A stretch of DNA of 64,000 bases, taken from positions 62,001 to 126,000 of the forward strand of contig NZ_JAAQTO010000006.1 in the NCBI RefSeq assembly GCF_011742165.1. Reading direction: 5' to 3'. This stretch comes from Billgrantia bachuensis (GTDB lineage: Bacteria > Pseudomonadota > Gammaproteobacteria > Pseudomonadales > Halomonadaceae). Below are positions 28,386 through 34,313 of this stretch, in pieces; the first letter of the stretch is position 1, and each line of letters begins with the position of its first letter. A model generated the notes under the pieces. It did not search any database and had not been told where the DNA came from. It was given only the letters and a program-made list of their open reading frames with translations. The translations under genes and the position numbers were made by a program.

Positions 28386-30884
28386 TCAGCGCTTGCGCGG
28401 CTTGCGCGAAGCGCCCGGCTTGTTGCTTGCCTCGCTACTGCTAGCGTCGGATTGGCTAACGGCTTTGGGCCTGGAAGCCTGCTTCCGCGCCTTTTCGCCA
28501 GCGGATTGCCTGGGCTGTTCGGGCTTCGGTGTCGCGGGTTCGGACCTGGGTGCCGCGGGTTCGGGCTTGGGTGGTGCGGGTTCCGCCTTGAGCAGTTTCG
28601 CTACCTCGCTGCGGGCTGCAGTCTCGGCCTTGGCGCCCATCGCCACCTCGTCGTGAAGCTCGGCCAGCGCCTGGCGATGCTCAACCGGGTCGACACGCTC
28701 CAGCGCCTCGCCGAACAGTTCACGAATGTGCTCGTAGCGCTTGCGTGCGTGTTCGGAAAGCTCACCGCTGGCTGCCAGCACGTGGTCGATATGCTCAAGG
28801 GAAGCACGAATCGCTTCGGCCCGTTCGCCAGCCAGCAACTGGGGGATTGCTGCCAGTGCAGCGTCGCGATCCAGCTTGAGAATGAAGAACTGCTCGCGCA
28901 CGAGATGCTTGAAGTCGGAGAGACTGCTGCCCGGCTCCAGCTCGGCGCGCGAGGCCCGCAGACGCTTGAAGTTGCGCTCGTCGGTCGTGGGGGCGCCGCC
29001 CAGCACGTGAATCACCGAGCGCATCACGGCCTCATGGATGCCACCCTCGGCTACCCGCTGGCGCAGTTCGTCCTGGCGCCGTTCGAGGAAGCGACGATGC
29101 TCGGGTTCGCTGCCGGGCTGGCGACGATGCACATGGGCGTCGCCGCCCAGTCCGACCATGGCCTGCAGCAGTGGTTGGCCATAGACCGCCAGGAAAAGGT
29201 GCTCGGTGCTCTGGTCGCGAATCTCGCGCCAAGTGTCCAACCCACGGGTAATCTGCTCGGAAACGGCCCTCTCCATGGTACGCAGGACGTTGTCTTCGGA
29301 GACGGGATGGCGATCCTCGCGCACCCACTCGGCGAGCACCGGGAGCGGCACCGACAGGGGGTTGCGATCCGACAGCAGCTTGTAGCCCAGGCGGATCGGG
29401 TGCATGCGGCGCATCAGGCGTGCCGCTTCCGGCGTGATTACCGCACGAATCCAGGGCTGGATGAACTGGCGATAGAGCCCAAGATTGATCTCCGAGATGC
29501 GCGCCACGGTGGCAAAGCGCGCGTCGTCGTCCTCGCGATGATGCAATACGTCCCGATTGAGCCCCTCGATGGAGCGCGCCTTGAACTCGAGCAGGTAGTC
29601 GCGCTCGATCAGCTCGGCATCATCGCGCTCGGCAGCACTAGTCACCGTGGTCTCGTAGAGGCCCGGCGGCAGCACGTCGATATAGTCGATGTTGGCGGTA
29701 AACTCGGCATGCTCCTTGCGTGACACGCTGCTCGACACGAAGATGCCCAGGTGGCCGGTACTGTCATGCACGCAATAAACAATGGTCTGCTCGCTGGCAA
29801 CGATATCGTCGGTATCGCCGTAGAGATCCCGCACCCAGCCCAGCGCCTGCGGCGGCGGGGTGATGTCGTCGCCCTGGGAGCAGAACACCACCACCGGCGA
29901 GCGCACGTTGCGCAGGTCGATGCGGCGTCCGTCCGAGGTGACCAGTTGCGCGGTGGAGAGCCGGTTGCCCACGAACAGGTTGTCAACGATGTACTGGATC
30001 TCCTCACCGCCCAGTACCACGTGGCCACCCCACCAGCGCTCGAAGTTGAGATAGCGTTCGGCCTCGGTATCGACGTTGGCGTAGAGTCGATACTGCTTGC
30101 CCCACCAGGTGTTGGCCGGGTTGAGACGTTCGAAGTTCTGCACCAGCAGGGCGCCATCGAACAGGCCGTCGCCCAGGTCGCTGGCCAGGGTCGTCATCCA
30201 GCTGCCGCCGGTCATGCCACCGGTGTAGCGCATGGGAGCCTTGCCCCGCTCGCCAGCCCAGTAGGAGAGAGGCGCACCGGCGATCAGGATCGGCCCGAAA
30301 CAGTCGGGTTCGAGCGAAGCTGCCATCATGATCTGCCAACCCGCCTGGCAATTGCCCACCACCATGGGCTTTTCGCACGATTGCGGATGATCCTCGATCA
30401 CCCGACGCAGGAAGGCGATCTCCGCCTCCACCACGTCCTCGACCGTCTGGCCAGGCTCGGGATAAGGCAGAAAGCCGATGAAATAGCAGGGATGGCCGGC
30501 ACGCAGGGCAACGCCGATTTCACTGTCCGGCTTGAAGCCGCCGATACCGGGACCGTGTCCGGCTCGCGGGTCGACGACCACGAAGGGCCGCGACTGGAGA
30601 TCGATCTCGACGTCGGGCGGAGGCAGGATGCGCATCAGCTCGTAGTTCACCGGCCGCGGCAGGCTGCGGCCATCCATCACGACTTCGGCGTCGAAGCCAA
30701 GCACGTTGGGCTTGGTCTTCTCGATATGTTCAAGGTACTGATTGCCACGCTCGCGCATCACGTCCATGTACAGCACGCTGCGTTCGACGGCGTCTCGCCA
30801 GTAGTCGAAGGCGGCACGGCCGAAACCGAATGGGTCCAGGAAGCTGAAGGCTTCTTTGGAGGGTGTCGGCAAGAGTGAGTTCAT
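28386..30884 (-). CDS. DUF3141 protein, PHA-synthase-like alpha/beta hydrolase
   Basis: 832 residues. The central part is an alpha/beta hydrolase related to polyhydroxyalkanoate synthases: FVVVDPRAGHGPGIGG, VVGNCQAGWQ (a GxCxxG nucleophile elbow with cysteine, as in PHA synthase), GDDITPP and HDSTGHLGIFVS for the acid and histidine. Family members are larger than PhaC and their reaction is not established to my knowledge. The last 110 residues are low-complexity, rich in Pro, Lys, Ala and Glu with repeated PKPE-type units, and probably disordered; PHA granule binding is possible but unproven. The start MNSLLPTPSKEAF has GGAG seven bases upstream; an upstream ATG lacks one. Confidence 0.85.
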   Translation of the reverse strand: MNSLLPTPSKEAFSFLDPFGFGRAAFDYWRDAVERSVLYMDVMRERGNQYLEHIEKTKPNVLGFDAEVVMDGRSLPRPVNYELMRILPPPDVEIDLQSRPFVVVDPRAGHGPGIGGFKPDSEIGVALRAGHPCYFIGFLPYPEPGQTVEDVVEAEIAFLRRVIEDHPQSCEKPMVVGNCQAGWQIMMAASLEPDCFGPILIAGAPLSYWAGERGKAPMRYTGGMTGGSWMTTLASDLGDGLFDGALLVQNFERLNPANTWWGKQYRLYANVDTEAERYLNFERWWGGHVVLGGEEIQYIVDNLFVGNRLSTAQLVTSDGRRIDLRNVRSPVVVFCSQGDDITPPPQALGWVRDLYGDTDDIVASEQTIVYCVHDSTGHLGIFVSSSVSRKEHAEFTANIDYIDVLPPGLYETTVTSAAERDDAELIERDYLLEFKARSIEGLNRDVLHHREDDDARFATVARISEINLGLYRQFIQPWIRAVITPEAARLMRRMHPIRLGYKLLSDRNPLSVPLPVLAEWVREDRHPVSEDNVLRTMERAVSEQITRGLDTWREIRDQSTEHLFLAVYGQPLLQAMVGLGGDAHVHRRQPGSEPEHRRFLERRQDELRQRVAEGGIHEAVMRSVIHVLGGAPTTDERNFKRLRASRAELEPGSSLSDFKHLVREQFFILKLDRDAALAAIPQLLAGERAEAIRASLEHIDHVLAASGELSEHARKRYEHIRELFGEALERVDPVEHRQALAELHDEVAMGAKAETAARSEVAKLLKAEPAPPKPEPAAPRSEPATPKPEQPRQSAGEKARKQASRPKAVSQSDASSSEASNKPGASRKPRKR

Positions 30885-31025
30885 GTTCGGCTCCAGGTTT
30901 CTCCGATGGCAAACGCATCGACATCGGGAGGAGTAAATATGCTGCGGTGCAACAAGCATAGTACCCCCTGCGCCGTCTCGACGCAGCCGTTTTGTCGATT
31001 TTTTGTGACTGGACGGTGGTTTCGC

Positions 31026-32054
31026 TCAGCCCTGTTCACCGGCAGCGCCCCCCACGCCCCCTGGATCGCCACGCCACTCGGCCAGCGCGCGTCGCTCGCG
31101 ACGGCCAGCCTCCGGCCCATCTCGCCCCCAGGTCAACAGCCGCACTTCAGTCTCGGCAATAGATTGGGAGGACCGATCGAGCCTGACCCCCGGCCCACCG
31201 CACAACTGGCCCGTTATCGAAGAGAGCAGGCGCCAGCGTGCCTGGCCTGGCCGCCCCGGGCCATGCCCCATGTGCCCGACCCGCGGACGCCTGAGGCGTT
31301 CACCCGCCACCAGCCGAATTTGCTCCACCGCCAAGTCGAGACCGGTCAGGACCTCGGCCAGACCCTCGTAGCCCGTCAGGCCAGGGCGCATGCCAACAAA
31401 ACCCAGCCGATTGTCGGTCAGCGAGAAACTCAGCGTTGCCAGGCCGACCAGGCCGAGCGAGCGAGCACCCTGCACGGCAAGCTGCCCGAGATAGGCGCGC
31501 TGCTCCGGGGTCAGTCGCTCACTGGGTGCCATGGCGAACCCTTCGCCGAGCAGCTCATGCTCGACCAGAGCCAGTGCCTGGCCGCGACAATCAGCCAGTA
31601 CCGGCAGGTGTACCCGCGGCGCCGACGCCTCGCCCAAGGGCAGCCCCGCTTCACGCATCAGCTGCCGGGAGGCACCGTCGTCGCACATGACGGCGACAAG
31701 GCTTTCGGGCGGACCGATGAAGGCCAGTCCGGCACGCGAACAACCACGGGCGAGACGCCACTGCTCCTCGGCGGTCGCTTCCCCGGGATGCACAGCGTCG
31801 CAGCCCAGCCGCTGGGCTCGCTCCACCAAGGTATCGCCGGTCGCACCAGCGCTGTCGCACCAGGCCAGCTCGAGTTCAGCGCAGGCCTGGCCGGCACGCA
31901 GCGCAGCCAGCCCGCTACCCGCCAGCAAGACACCGCGCCAGCCCCCCTGGCGCAGAGCATCGAGATAAGGGGCGGTTGGCAACTGCCGTTGCCGGCCGAG
32001 GCTATCGGCATGACCCTGGTCGCCGGCAGTGATAGCATGGATAAGCTTCTTCAA
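31026..32054 (-). CDS. Biotin-carboxylase-like protein lacking the ATP-grasp B subdomain
   Basis: 342 residues. It aligns along its length with the AccC at the other end of the window: GVLLAGSGLAALRAGQACAE with the AccC N-domain, CDAVHPGEATAEEQ and AFIGPPESLVAVM, LPVLADCRGQALALVEHE with [18 protein letters not shown], and LTGLDLAVEQIRLVAGE with [16 protein letters not shown]. AccC residues about 133-209, including the GGGGRG loop, are replaced by about ten residues, and the catalytic stretch [10 protein letters not shown] reads GMRPGLTGYE. Carboxylase activity is therefore unlikely. It starts at TTG after a strong GGGGAGG, so it is translated, not a decayed pseudogene. A LysR gene diverges 33 bases away and may control it. 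Confidence 0.75.
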   Translation of the reverse strand: MKKLIHAITAGDQGHADSLGRQRQLPTAPYLDALRQGGWRGVLLAGSGLAALRAGQACAELELAWCDSAGATGDTLVERAQRLGCDAVHPGEATAEEQWRLARGCSRAGLAFIGPPESLVAVMCDDGASRQLMREAGLPLGEASAPRVHLPVLADCRGQALALVEHELLGEGFAMAPSERLTPEQRAYLGQLAVQGARSLGLVGLATLSFSLTDNRLGFVGMRPGLTGYEGLAEVLTGLDLAVEQIRLVAGERLRRPRVGHMGHGPGRPGQARWRLLSSITGQLCGGPGVRLDRSSQSIAETEVRLLTWGRDGPEAGRRERRALAEWRGDPGGVGGAAGEQG

Positions 32055-32087
32055 CGGGCCTCCCCGACCCTTCTAGCGGATTGATCG

Positions 32088-33077
32088 ATGACGACGCCTA
32101 GCCTGCTGAACCGCCTGACCTTTCGCCAGTTGCAGGTGTTCCAGGCCGTGCATGGCCAACAGTCCTATTCGCGGGCTGCCGAACGGCTGGGCTTGACCCA
32201 ACCGGCAGTCAGCGCGCAGATCCGCCAGCTCGAGCAAGCCCTGGGCCAACCGCTGTTCAAGTATTCCGGCAAGACCCTACATGTGTTGCCGGCCGCCGAT
32301 GCACTGGCGGCATCGACACAGGCTATCTTTGGCCAGGTCTCGCGCTTGCAGATGGCGCTGTCGGACATGGACGGTACGATTTCCGGCGAACTCAACCTGG
32401 CAGCCGTCTCGACGGCCCAGTACGTGGTGCCGCACCTGATCGCCCGCTTCCGCGCCCACTATCCCAACGTTCAGGTTCGGTTGCAGGTGTGCAACCGCAG
32501 CCAGGCACTGGAGCGGCTGGCGGCTCGCCGCGACGACCTGGTGATCATGGCGATGGTTCCCGAGGATGACGACAACCTGGTTTTCATGCCGTTCCTGGAA
32601 AATGAGCTGATTCCCATCGTCTGGCCCGGCCACCCATTGCTCGAGGCTCACTCCCCCACTCTGGAGGATCTGGCCCGACACTATCTACTGATGCGTGAGT
32701 CAGGCTCGGGGGTGCGCACCGCCTTCGAAGAGCTCGCCGCCGAACAGGACGTTGCGCTTCAGCATACCATGGAGCTGGGGACCAACGAGGCGATCAAGCA
32801 AGGGGTGATGGCGCACTTGGGCGTGACGGTGCTGCCGCGGCTGTCCGTACGCCTGGAACTCGGCGCGGGACTACTGGCCGAGCTGTCCCTGCCGGGTTTT
32901 CCCCTGCGCCGCTCCTGGTGCACGGTCTACCCCAGAGATCGCTTTCCCACCCCGGTGACCGAGCTGTTCCTGCGCTTCGTACGCGAGCGACTGGGCGAGA
33001 TCGAGGCGCATTTCAAGGCGACACCGCAGCCGATGCCCGATCATGGCGTGGTCTGCCTGCCGATACCTCCCGGCTGA
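32088..33077 (+). CDS. LysR-family transcriptional regulator, CbbR-like
   Basis: 329 residues. The N-terminal winged helix-turn-helix (FRQLQVFQAVHGQQSYSRAA, then TQPAVSAQIRQLE) is joined to a periplasmic-binding-like effector domain, with AVSTAQYVVPHLIARFRAHYP at its start as in CbbR-type regulators. No Calvin-cycle genes are near. Divergence from the biotin-carboxylase-like gene with only 33 bases between suggests that it regulates that gene and itself. The effector is unknown. Confidence 0.88.
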   Translation: MTTPSLLNRLTFRQLQVFQAVHGQQSYSRAAERLGLTQPAVSAQIRQLEQALGQPLFKYSGKTLHVLPAADALAASTQAIFGQVSRLQMALSDMDGTISGELNLAAVSTAQYVVPHLIARFRAHYPNVQVRLQVCNRSQALERLAARRDDLVIMAMVPEDDDNLVFMPFLENELIPIVWPGHPLLEAHSPTLEDLARHYLLMRESGSGVRTAFEELAAEQDVALQHTMELGTNEAIKQGVMAHLGVTVLPRLSVRLELGAGLLAELSLPGFPLRRSWCTVYPRDRFPTPVTELFLRFVRERLGEIEAHFKATPQPMPDHGVVCLPIPPG

Positions 33078-33260
33078 AGGCTTGACTGGCCGAGCGGCGA
33101 CTCCGGCCGCTGTGCCAGGCAGGCGCGAATATGATAGATTACGGGCCTGCGACCATCGTATCAATTGCCGGCCATGCGGGCTGGTGCTGCCCCGGTACAC
33201 GACGTACCGCGGCACCCAGGCATGGTTGTGGCAGCCGCCGAGTGGAGGGGCTCACACCCT

Positions 33261-34313
33261 ATGAGCGACAACACCTCAAAACGCGTGCCAAGCGGCGCGA
33301 AGTTCCGCACCGAGCATGGCTTTGCCGCCATCAAGGACGGCATGAAGCAGCGCGACCAGGCCGAGGAGCGCCCCGAACCGGGACGCAAGCCGCAATGGTT
33401 GCGCGCCCAGATTCCCGGCGGCGGCCGCTTCGAGGCGGTGAAGCGCAATGTCAACGAGCATCGCCTGAGCACCGTGTGCGCCGAGTCGCACTGCCCCAAC
33501 ATGGGCGAGTGCTGGAGCAACGGCACCGCCACCATCATGCTGATGGGCTCGGTGTGCACCCGCGCCTGCCGCTTCTGTGCCGTCGATACCGGCAACCCCC
33601 GTGGTTGGCTGGATAGCGAGGAACCGGCCAACACCGCCAAGTCGGTGGAGCTGATGGGGCTGCGCTACGTGGTACTGACCTCGGTCGACCGCGACGACCT
33701 GACAGACGGCGGCGCTGCCCACTATGCCGAGTGCGTCCGGGCGATCAAGACCAATACGCCGGCGGTGGTGGTCGAGGCGCTGACGCCCGACTTCGACGGT
33801 GACCCTGCCGCCATCGAGCGAGTGGTCGATTCCGGCCTCGAGGTGTTCGCCCAGAACGTCGAAACCGTGGAGCGGCTCACACACTATGTGCGAGACCCAC
33901 GGGCCGGCTATCGCAAGACTCTCGACGTGCTGGCCCATGCCAAGCGCTATCGCCCCGATGTGCTGACCAAGACCAGCCTGATGCTGGGACTCGGAGAGAC
34001 GGACGAAGAAATACTCGCAACCTTCGACGACCTGCGCGCCATCGATGTGGATATCGTCACCCTCGGCCAGTATCTGCGTCCCACCCGCAACCACCTGCCG
34101 GTCGAGCGCTGGGTCACGCCGGACGAGTTCGAACGCTATCGCCGGCTCGGCCTGGAGAAAGGTTTCATGGAGGTGGCTTCCGGCCCCTTGGTGCGCTCCA
34201 GCTACCGTGCCGATCGGGTATTCGAGAAGAACAATCTGGGACTGGCCGCACCGGCCAAAGTGCCGGGTCAGGCACCCGACCCCGATCGCATTCAGGCGGT
34301 CAATGTCGGCTGA
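33261..34313 (+). CDS. lipA: Lipoyl synthase
   Basis: 350 residues. A radical SAM enzyme that inserts two sulfurs into protein-bound octanoyl groups. Auxiliary cluster cysteines are in [12 protein letters not shown], the SAM cluster is CTRACRFC, and the conserved RSSYRAD serine ligand is near the C-terminus. GGAGGGG precedes the ATG by about 11 bases; an upstream in-frame ATG gives a non-homologous extension. Its partner lipB faces it on the opposite strand instead of sharing an operon. Confidence 0.97.

Follow-up and report, generated by a model that had tools for sequence, protein, structure and literature searches.

A trimmed pycA gene beside pycR in Halomonas and Billgrantia, probably encoding a pseudoenzyme retained under selection

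Genes of the locus and the parentage of pycA'

The window analysed here, a stretch of 64,000 nucleotides from Billgrantia bachuensis, carries a reduced biotin carboxylase gene, named pycA' in this report, between a divergent LysR-type regulator gene and a gene that we take to belong to the DUF3141 family; the gene beyond the regulator is presumably lipA (Table 1). The 342-codon frame opens with a TTG preceded by GGGGAGG, and 33 bases separate it from the LysR gene, as the initial annotation of this DNA had described; the GGGGAGG lies four bases upstream, and the LysR start is at 32088. Pfam recognizes part of the biotin carboxylase N-domain, PF00289 (residues 72-118), and part of CPSase_L_D2, PF02786 (residues 152-255) in the product and reports no C-terminal domain PF02785. 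Rfam returned no RNA family at gathering score between 30500 and 32600, and a generic scan for promoters and terminators returned no consensus promoter but two terminator-like sites, where shuffled sequences average 1.0.

Table 1. Coordinates of the features discussed, in window positions
Feature	Position	Strand	Remarks
Reduced pycA (pycA')	31026..32054	-	342-codon frame; true start uncertain
Alternative pycA' start, e.g. codon 43	31928	-	TTG here, ATG in relatives L005-L009
Former ATP-grasp core, codons 151-260	31275..31604	-	omega 0.04-0.06; block pLDDT 93-98 (residues 151-250)
Short linker replacing B subdomain, codons 140-146	31617..31637	-	from spacing comparison
Former catalytic stretch, codons 221-230	31365..31394	-	now mostly xMxPGLxGxE
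GGPGVRLD motif, codons 286-293	31176..31199	-	holds Arg of PycA 365, 58/58
pycR, LysR-type regulator	32088..33077	+	divergent from pycA in full-length loci
Conserved element TGATAGCAT	32030..32038	+	possible extended -10 of pycR promoter; inside codons 6-9 of listed ORF
DUF3141 gene	28386..30959	-	downstream of pycA', same strand
lipA	33165..34313	+	conserved flank used for synteny and tree
accC, intact biotin carboxylase, 446 aa	57672..59012	+	comparison only

The initial annotation took pycA' for a paralogue of AccC that aligned with it from end to end. BLASTP bears out part of this description, namely that AccC residues about 133-209 have given way to some ten residues and that the active-site stretch now reads GMRPGLTGYE: AccC residues about 130-206 have no counterpart in pycA', and the AccC active-site stretch faces this very sequence. 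The alignment itself falls into two pieces (residues 42-139 and 146-326, 27% identity each), and the last 47 residues of PycA are gone. AccC shares a common fold with pycA' but is more distant from it than PycA is, and it exists as an intact enzyme elsewhere on the same contig. Bit scores are 90 and 76 against the full-length PycA P0059, compared with 45 and 43 against AccC. PRK07178 scores highest of the NCBIfam models, with 96 bits against a curated cut-off of 768; the accC model TIGR00514 gives 68.9 bits against 626.5, so that neither comes near its cut-off.

Gene order points the same way. Seventeen full-length loci (L034-L048, L050, L073) were retrieved from other genera, and in every one of them pycA is divergent from a LysR gene with 51-80% identity to that of the window; DUF3141 is found in nine of these stretches and a lipA of more than 75% identity in eight, several stretches having ended early at contig ends or limits. 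The flanks around the reduced gene are those of the full-length loci. Twelve genomes represent further families of the order; in 10 of them the top LysR match stands divergent beside pycA, and the other two gave no match. Since pycA lies beside a divergent LysR gene across genera and families, we identify the regulator of the window, by gene order and identity, as PycR. In Pseudomonas aeruginosa, PycR is linked with the operon that encodes pyruvate carboxylase (PMC5059739 and PMC9765439, both in part). Synteny, bit scores and NCBIfam scores together rule out the AccC paralogue, and the gene is almost certainly the orthologue, in its ancestral place, of pycA, which encodes the alpha (biotin carboxylase) subunit of two-subunit pyruvate carboxylase.

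The partner gene pycB is missing. A PYC_OADA match, taken as pycB, adjoins pycA in three genomes (G009, G012, G014) and lies between pycA and DUF3141 in the latter two, as pycB does in both full-length loci checked (L038, L042). No pycB is present at the locus in the reduced genomes G155, G217, G205, G213 and G162, whose PYC_OADA matches lie elsewhere. In the 29 reduced loci that were measured, 1-158 bases separate the reduced gene from the longest DUF3141 frame, too few to hold pycB. Relocation of pycB within the window's own genome was considered and rejected, as the sole PYC_OADA match there adjoins OAD_beta and is oadA.

The protein has many relatives of its own kind. Among the best 120 of 817 database matches, the first 58 are short proteins of 295-345 aa (P0001-P0058), which come from Halomonas and Billgrantia wherever the source gives an organism; those that follow are full-length biotin carboxylases, mostly about 471 aa. 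Some of the short proteins (P0012, P0014, P0020) bear public names such as 'pyruvate carboxylase subunit A' and 'acetyl-CoA carboxylase biotin carboxylase', and such names on probably dead proteins would mislead metabolic models. One of them, P0020, belongs to Halomonas sp. KM-1, a strain studied for bioplastic and oxaloacetate production (PMC5698238, in part). Among the papers listed by a literature search, none described the pycA' protein, and the consulted sections of PMC5698238, which deal with pyruvate carboxylase, say nothing about it.

Trimmed segments, fixed residues and predicted fold

The losses were mapped in PycA P0059 numbering on 58 reduced proteins, consisting of the window's and 57 of the 58 database proteins. 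Seven segments of at least three residues are absent in more than 90% of them: 34-57, 135-203, 230-234, 338-345, 355-359, 374-379, and 425-471. The second is the B subdomain, which the initial annotation had called cleanly missing; the subdomain is indeed gone, while the loss is wider than that description allowed. Residues P139 and L153 are 14-17 residues apart in all 58 reduced proteins and 85 apart in all 26 full PycA proteins.

Little of the catalytic machinery is left. The Gly-rich loop, the hinge EK and the QRRN motif are deleted in all 58 reduced proteins, PycA residues K115, H207, E274, E286, N288, R290, Q292, E294 and H295 are replaced in most or all, and E209 is replaced in all but nine. 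From biotin carboxylase biochemistry we take K115, E209, E274, E286, N288, R290 and R365 to form the ATP, metal, biotin or bicarbonate site; if this assignment holds, R365 is a site residue that was retained, as R291, in 58 of 58. Also kept throughout are E60, R319 and R322. Other residues are new and equally fixed: Q56 (PycA R19), E92 (PycA Y81), G204, G218 and G228 in all 58, and P224, G225 and E230 in 57. Compared with PycA, then, pycA' resembles it in orthologous locus, fold, divergent pycR and best sequence match, and differs by the loss of seven segments (the B subdomain and the PycB-docking helix included), of nearly all catalytic residues and of an adjacent pycB. The catalytic residues of AccC are likewise absent. 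That the protein is catalytically dead is hardly in doubt, and the initial annotation finds support in so far as it saw here a relative of biotin carboxylase that has been retained, very probably without enzymatic activity.

New fixed residues at the old active site and the retained Arg of PycA 365 would also suit a protein whose remodelled cleft takes another metabolite, as a small-molecule binder or a new enzyme. No catalytic residue set is evident, however, and the motif is absent from the copy of genome G162 (L049), which has the large deletions, Q56 and R53 but lacks E92, P224, G228 and E230; the new active-site motif is therefore not universal. A metabolite-binding or enzymatic role of this kind appears quite improbable.

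A laboratory construct offers a close parallel to the central loss. For crystallisation of Methylobacillus flagellatus pyruvate carboxylase, residues 131-201 were replaced by a GSSG linker, and the protein purified like the wild type but was inactive; the C-terminal helix of this enzyme, 454-472, docks on the beta subunit (PMC5059739, in part). The piece removed is nearly identical to the natural one (131-201 against about 135-203), and the engineered enzyme (PDB 5ks8) still assembles. It was made, however, with its beta subunit present, while the natural protein lacks that subunit and has lost six further segments. When the family profile is compared with PDB sequences, the alpha subunit of this enzyme, 5ks8_A, comes first, its score probably helped by the missing B subdomain of the construct.

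The surface that remains bears on a possible partnership with acetyl-CoA carboxylase, akin to the decoy role that the initial annotation had considered, in which the dead subunit would form mixed dimers with AccC or hold BCCP and so throttle or scaffold the enzyme. Interface positions E23 and (by count) R401 of the M. flagellatus enzyme are kept in all 58 proteins as E60 and R319 (interface roles from PMC5059739, in part), and the non-biotinylated BADC proteins of plant plastids regulate acetyl-CoA carboxylase or help it assemble (PMC11926652, in part). Like pycA', BADC proteins are related to a carboxylase component but do not catalyse, their own part being in regulation or assembly; they are, however, related to BCCP rather than to biotin carboxylase and have a separate origin. 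Full PycA proteins conserve E60 and R319 just as strictly (26 of 26), so that these two residues are perhaps only structural, interface residue R19 has become Q in 58 of 58, the C-domain is partly gone, and the M. flagellatus alpha subunit alone is a monomer in solution (PMC5059739, in part). Partnership with AccC or AccB is accordingly rather unlikely.

Predicted alone by AlphaFold2, as the initial annotation had proposed, the product has a mean pLDDT of 86.2 and a pTM of 0.83, from an input of 84 sequences that included 26 full PycA proteins and so favours the PycA fold. Ten-residue pLDDT means lie at 93-98 over residues 41-250 and fall below 50 at 1-24, 260-266 and 334-342. Each of the 50 Foldseek rows shown is either a biotin carboxylase or a biotin-dependent carboxylase, with TMq of 0.69-0.75. 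The model thus predicts a biotin carboxylase fold kept without its B subdomain.

Distribution, history and selection

The reduced form occurs in 39 genomes of a sample of 250 from the family: 38 of the 73 of the window's genus and G162 of a second genus, g11. This sharing rules out an assembly error or a recent deletion. The initial annotation had named an unconserved frame in related species, or orthologues with an intact B subdomain, as signs against its reading; the frame is conserved across these 39 genomes, and intact orthologues exist but in other genera, which points to an old reduction rather than an assembly error. Of 293 genomes of the order, only two of which belong to the window's genus, 63 had a match to the family profile at 1e-25 or better; leaving aside the window's own genome, the other 62 all hold full-length frames, at least 472 aa long. 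Named genomes were scanned as well and yielded 38 loci, of which 28 are titled Halomonas or Billgrantia, one Litchfieldella and nine other bacteria. The reduced form accounts for 26 of the 28, with L091 and L101 too short for classing; the Litchfieldella locus (L102) is full-length, as are seven of the other nine, two being unclassed. The reduced protein is found here only in Halomonas and Billgrantia relatives.

All 39 genomes with the reduced gene also carry pycR. Five of the 73 genomes of the window's genus have pycR without any pycA, and 30 of the 73 have neither gene by the thresholds used. The 12 g11 loci that were retrieved and entered in the tree likewise have pycR alone. Among 12 genomes lacking both, a lipA match was found in eight, and DUF3141 lies directly beside lipA in six of these (L113-L118); of the remaining two, L112 ends too near lipA to tell and L119 has topA beside lipA. 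Across genomes, this one locus offers a natural progression from the full enzyme through the trimmed one to loss of the gene beside a surviving regulator and, finally, loss of both. In the g11 loci L059-L064, L066-L069, L071 and L072, pycR is divergent from DUF3141 with no pycA between them, and DUF3141 may be a PycR target.

A tree was built from LipA, DUF3141 and LysR (PycR itself included) of 52 loci, 29 reduced, 17 without the gene and 6 full-length, by a quick method with SH-aLRT support and with 6 of the 17 full-length loci. A single branch sets the full-length loci apart from the rest, and four changes suffice to explain the pattern (one reduction, three losses), although the tree has open forks, among them the branching order of the two genera's clades. 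Because G162 nests within g11 with a support of 100, the reduction is probably older than the separation of the two genera, barring in-place transfer. The gene was thus lost at least three times on the tree, and this repeated loss, together with its absence from the 30 genomes of the genus that also lack pycR, indicates that pycA' is dispensable.

The history of PycR can be followed in the same loci. Nine of its columns separate reduced from full-length loci (53, 86, 93, 117, 127, 155, 220, 221 and 266 in ungapped L074 numbering), and gene-less loci share the reduced state in seven of them; no column separates reduced-gene loci from gene-less loci at the thresholds set. PycR thus appears from these columns to have shifted along with the enzyme loss. 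This bears on a second candidate role, in which the protein would bind PycR, or supply or remove its ligand, and thereby tune the PycR regulon. The two genes are divergent neighbours and the reduced gene is never found without pycR (38 of 38 in the genus, and G162), but their adjacency is ancestral, and loci that have lost the gene still keep PycR, with no consistent change in it, which weakens the case. A PycR cofactor must be regarded as an improbable role.

Upstream of pycR, most reduced loci contain the element CATGCTA(T/G)CAC. It is conserved in all 18 aligned loci (L003-L020); in the window it lies within the first ten codons of the listed pycA' frame, inside codons 5-10, where the structural model is disordered. 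Of 30 reduced loci, 28 match its 17-base form with at most five mismatches, at a distance of 25-59 bases from the start of pycR, and so do 7 of 17 gene-less loci; up to six mismatches admit 14 of the 17 gene-less loci and none of 18 full-length loci (L038 and L102 being one genome), but shuffles average about 7 mismatches, so that weaker matches alone lack significance. On the pycR strand the element reads TG-N-TAGCAT, and it may be the extended -10 box of the pycR promoter, which was perhaps remodelled when pyruvate carboxylase was lost. A GGAGG-like stretch precedes the TTG in most close relatives. The TTG start is nevertheless doubtful, since this conserved DNA lies inside the first ten codons and L010-L020 have ATG codons downstream of it.

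Selection on the gene was gauged by Nei-Gojobori dN/dS on the longest frames, a comparison across orthologues that had been proposed from the outset, and the values are well below 1. They are 0.12-0.30 in 13 of 17 pairs and 0.40-0.48 in three more distant pairs; the near-identical pair L014/L015 has four nonsynonymous and no synonymous changes, which makes its ratio meaningless. For PycR these pairs give 0.01-0.24, and for DUF3141 seven pairs range from 0.054 to 0.253; full-length pycA runs lower than pycA', at 0.046-0.095 in six of seven pairs with one saturated. A frame control that pools 11 pairs puts the true frame at 0.204 and one antisense frame at 0.324, with 1.38-2.27 for the remaining four. 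The weaker constraint of the antisense frame (0.32 against 0.20) rules out a coding gene on the opposite strand (30906-32084, +), and we read its low value as a mirror of the true frame's third positions. The pycA' ORF is not a chance one, as it has 58 short relatives in the protein database and its frame is the constrained one.

Constraint is uneven along the gene. Five overlapping pairs from the window's own clade give an omega of 0.41 for codons 1-24, 0.37 for 25-42, 0.33 for 43-72, 0.23 for 73-150, 0.06 for 151-215, 0.04 for 216-260, and 0.18 for both 261-310 and 311-342. The lowest values fall on the former active-site core, although nearly all of its catalytic residues are gone.

Repeated complete loss, evolution faster than that of the flanking genes and one copy apparently out of frame would fit a slowly dying relic, a non-functional remnant with residual similarity. 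In that copy, P0021 from Billgrantia tianxiuensis, the final third seems to have left the frame, possibly a recent loss in one species. A relic is hard to reconcile, however, with an omega well below 1 and of 0.04-0.06 in the core, or with frames that are open in 39 of 39 genomes; an internal stop flagged in G187 proved to be the gene's own end. In a substitution-only neutral simulation, 53, 9, 2 and 1 of 400 frames remained stop-free at branch lengths of 0.15, 0.3, 0.6 and 1.0. We consider a relic very unlikely, and it is highly probable that selection maintains the reduced gene. Open frames, low dN/dS and new residues fixed at the dead active site lead us to describe the product as a putative pseudoenzyme, one that lost its catalytic residues and was retained under selection, old and derived in place from pycA.

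A proposed role for the retained subunit

Comparison of the loci supports a history in which an ancestor of the Halomonas/Billgrantia clade (and g11) lost pycB and its pycA shed the B subdomain, a catalytic loop, the N-domain insert and the PycB-docking C-terminal helix. The resulting protein should no longer carboxylate biotin, but its core is under purifying selection and new residues are fixed at the old active site. Pyruvate carboxylase itself may have been made dispensable by a Na+-pumping oxaloacetate decarboxylase (Oad) and PEP carboxylase, which in Halomonas elongata divide the anaplerotic flux (PMC7545133, in part). OAD_beta is present in all seven tested genomes with the reduced gene or no pycA and in three of five tested full-length genomes; since it also occurs in the latter, Oad may have preceded the loss of pyruvate carboxylase, and it is a plausible reason why the enzyme could go.

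The leftover alpha subunit, divergent from pycR, would then have been kept as a non-catalytic binding protein with a biotin carboxylase fold. An independent binding protein fits better than a dead-weight relic or an obligate partner of PycR, because the predicted fold is kept, the old site is the most conserved part and carries new residues, and no PycR column, at the thresholds set, differs between loci with and without the gene. We give about even chances to a retained, non-catalytic binding protein of whatever partner, a reading that overlaps with those that name one. That it works by protein contact, as an adaptor or regulator using the remodelled active-site face, is a guess that we hold tentatively and consider somewhat less probable. 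A known case of a carboxylase protein turned to another use is the pyruvate carboxylase of Hansenula, which serves as an assembly factor of alcohol oxidase (PMC10672435, in part); it is, however, a full-length enzyme, and the title of a work cited there names the transcarboxylase domain as the part needed.

In a more specific and less probable version of the binding protein, sodium-driven halophiles would have dropped pyruvate carboxylase and turned its alpha subunit into a stand-alone regulator, whose former active-site cleft binds a partner or metabolite from the pyruvate/oxaloacetate node. If true, a carboxylase would have been turned into a sensor by trimming its ATP lid. A shrunken subunit that is still under selection suggests a new, non-enzymatic job, and a subunit kept after losing both its partner and its catalysis makes the capability of a stripped carboxylase testable in culturable halophiles.
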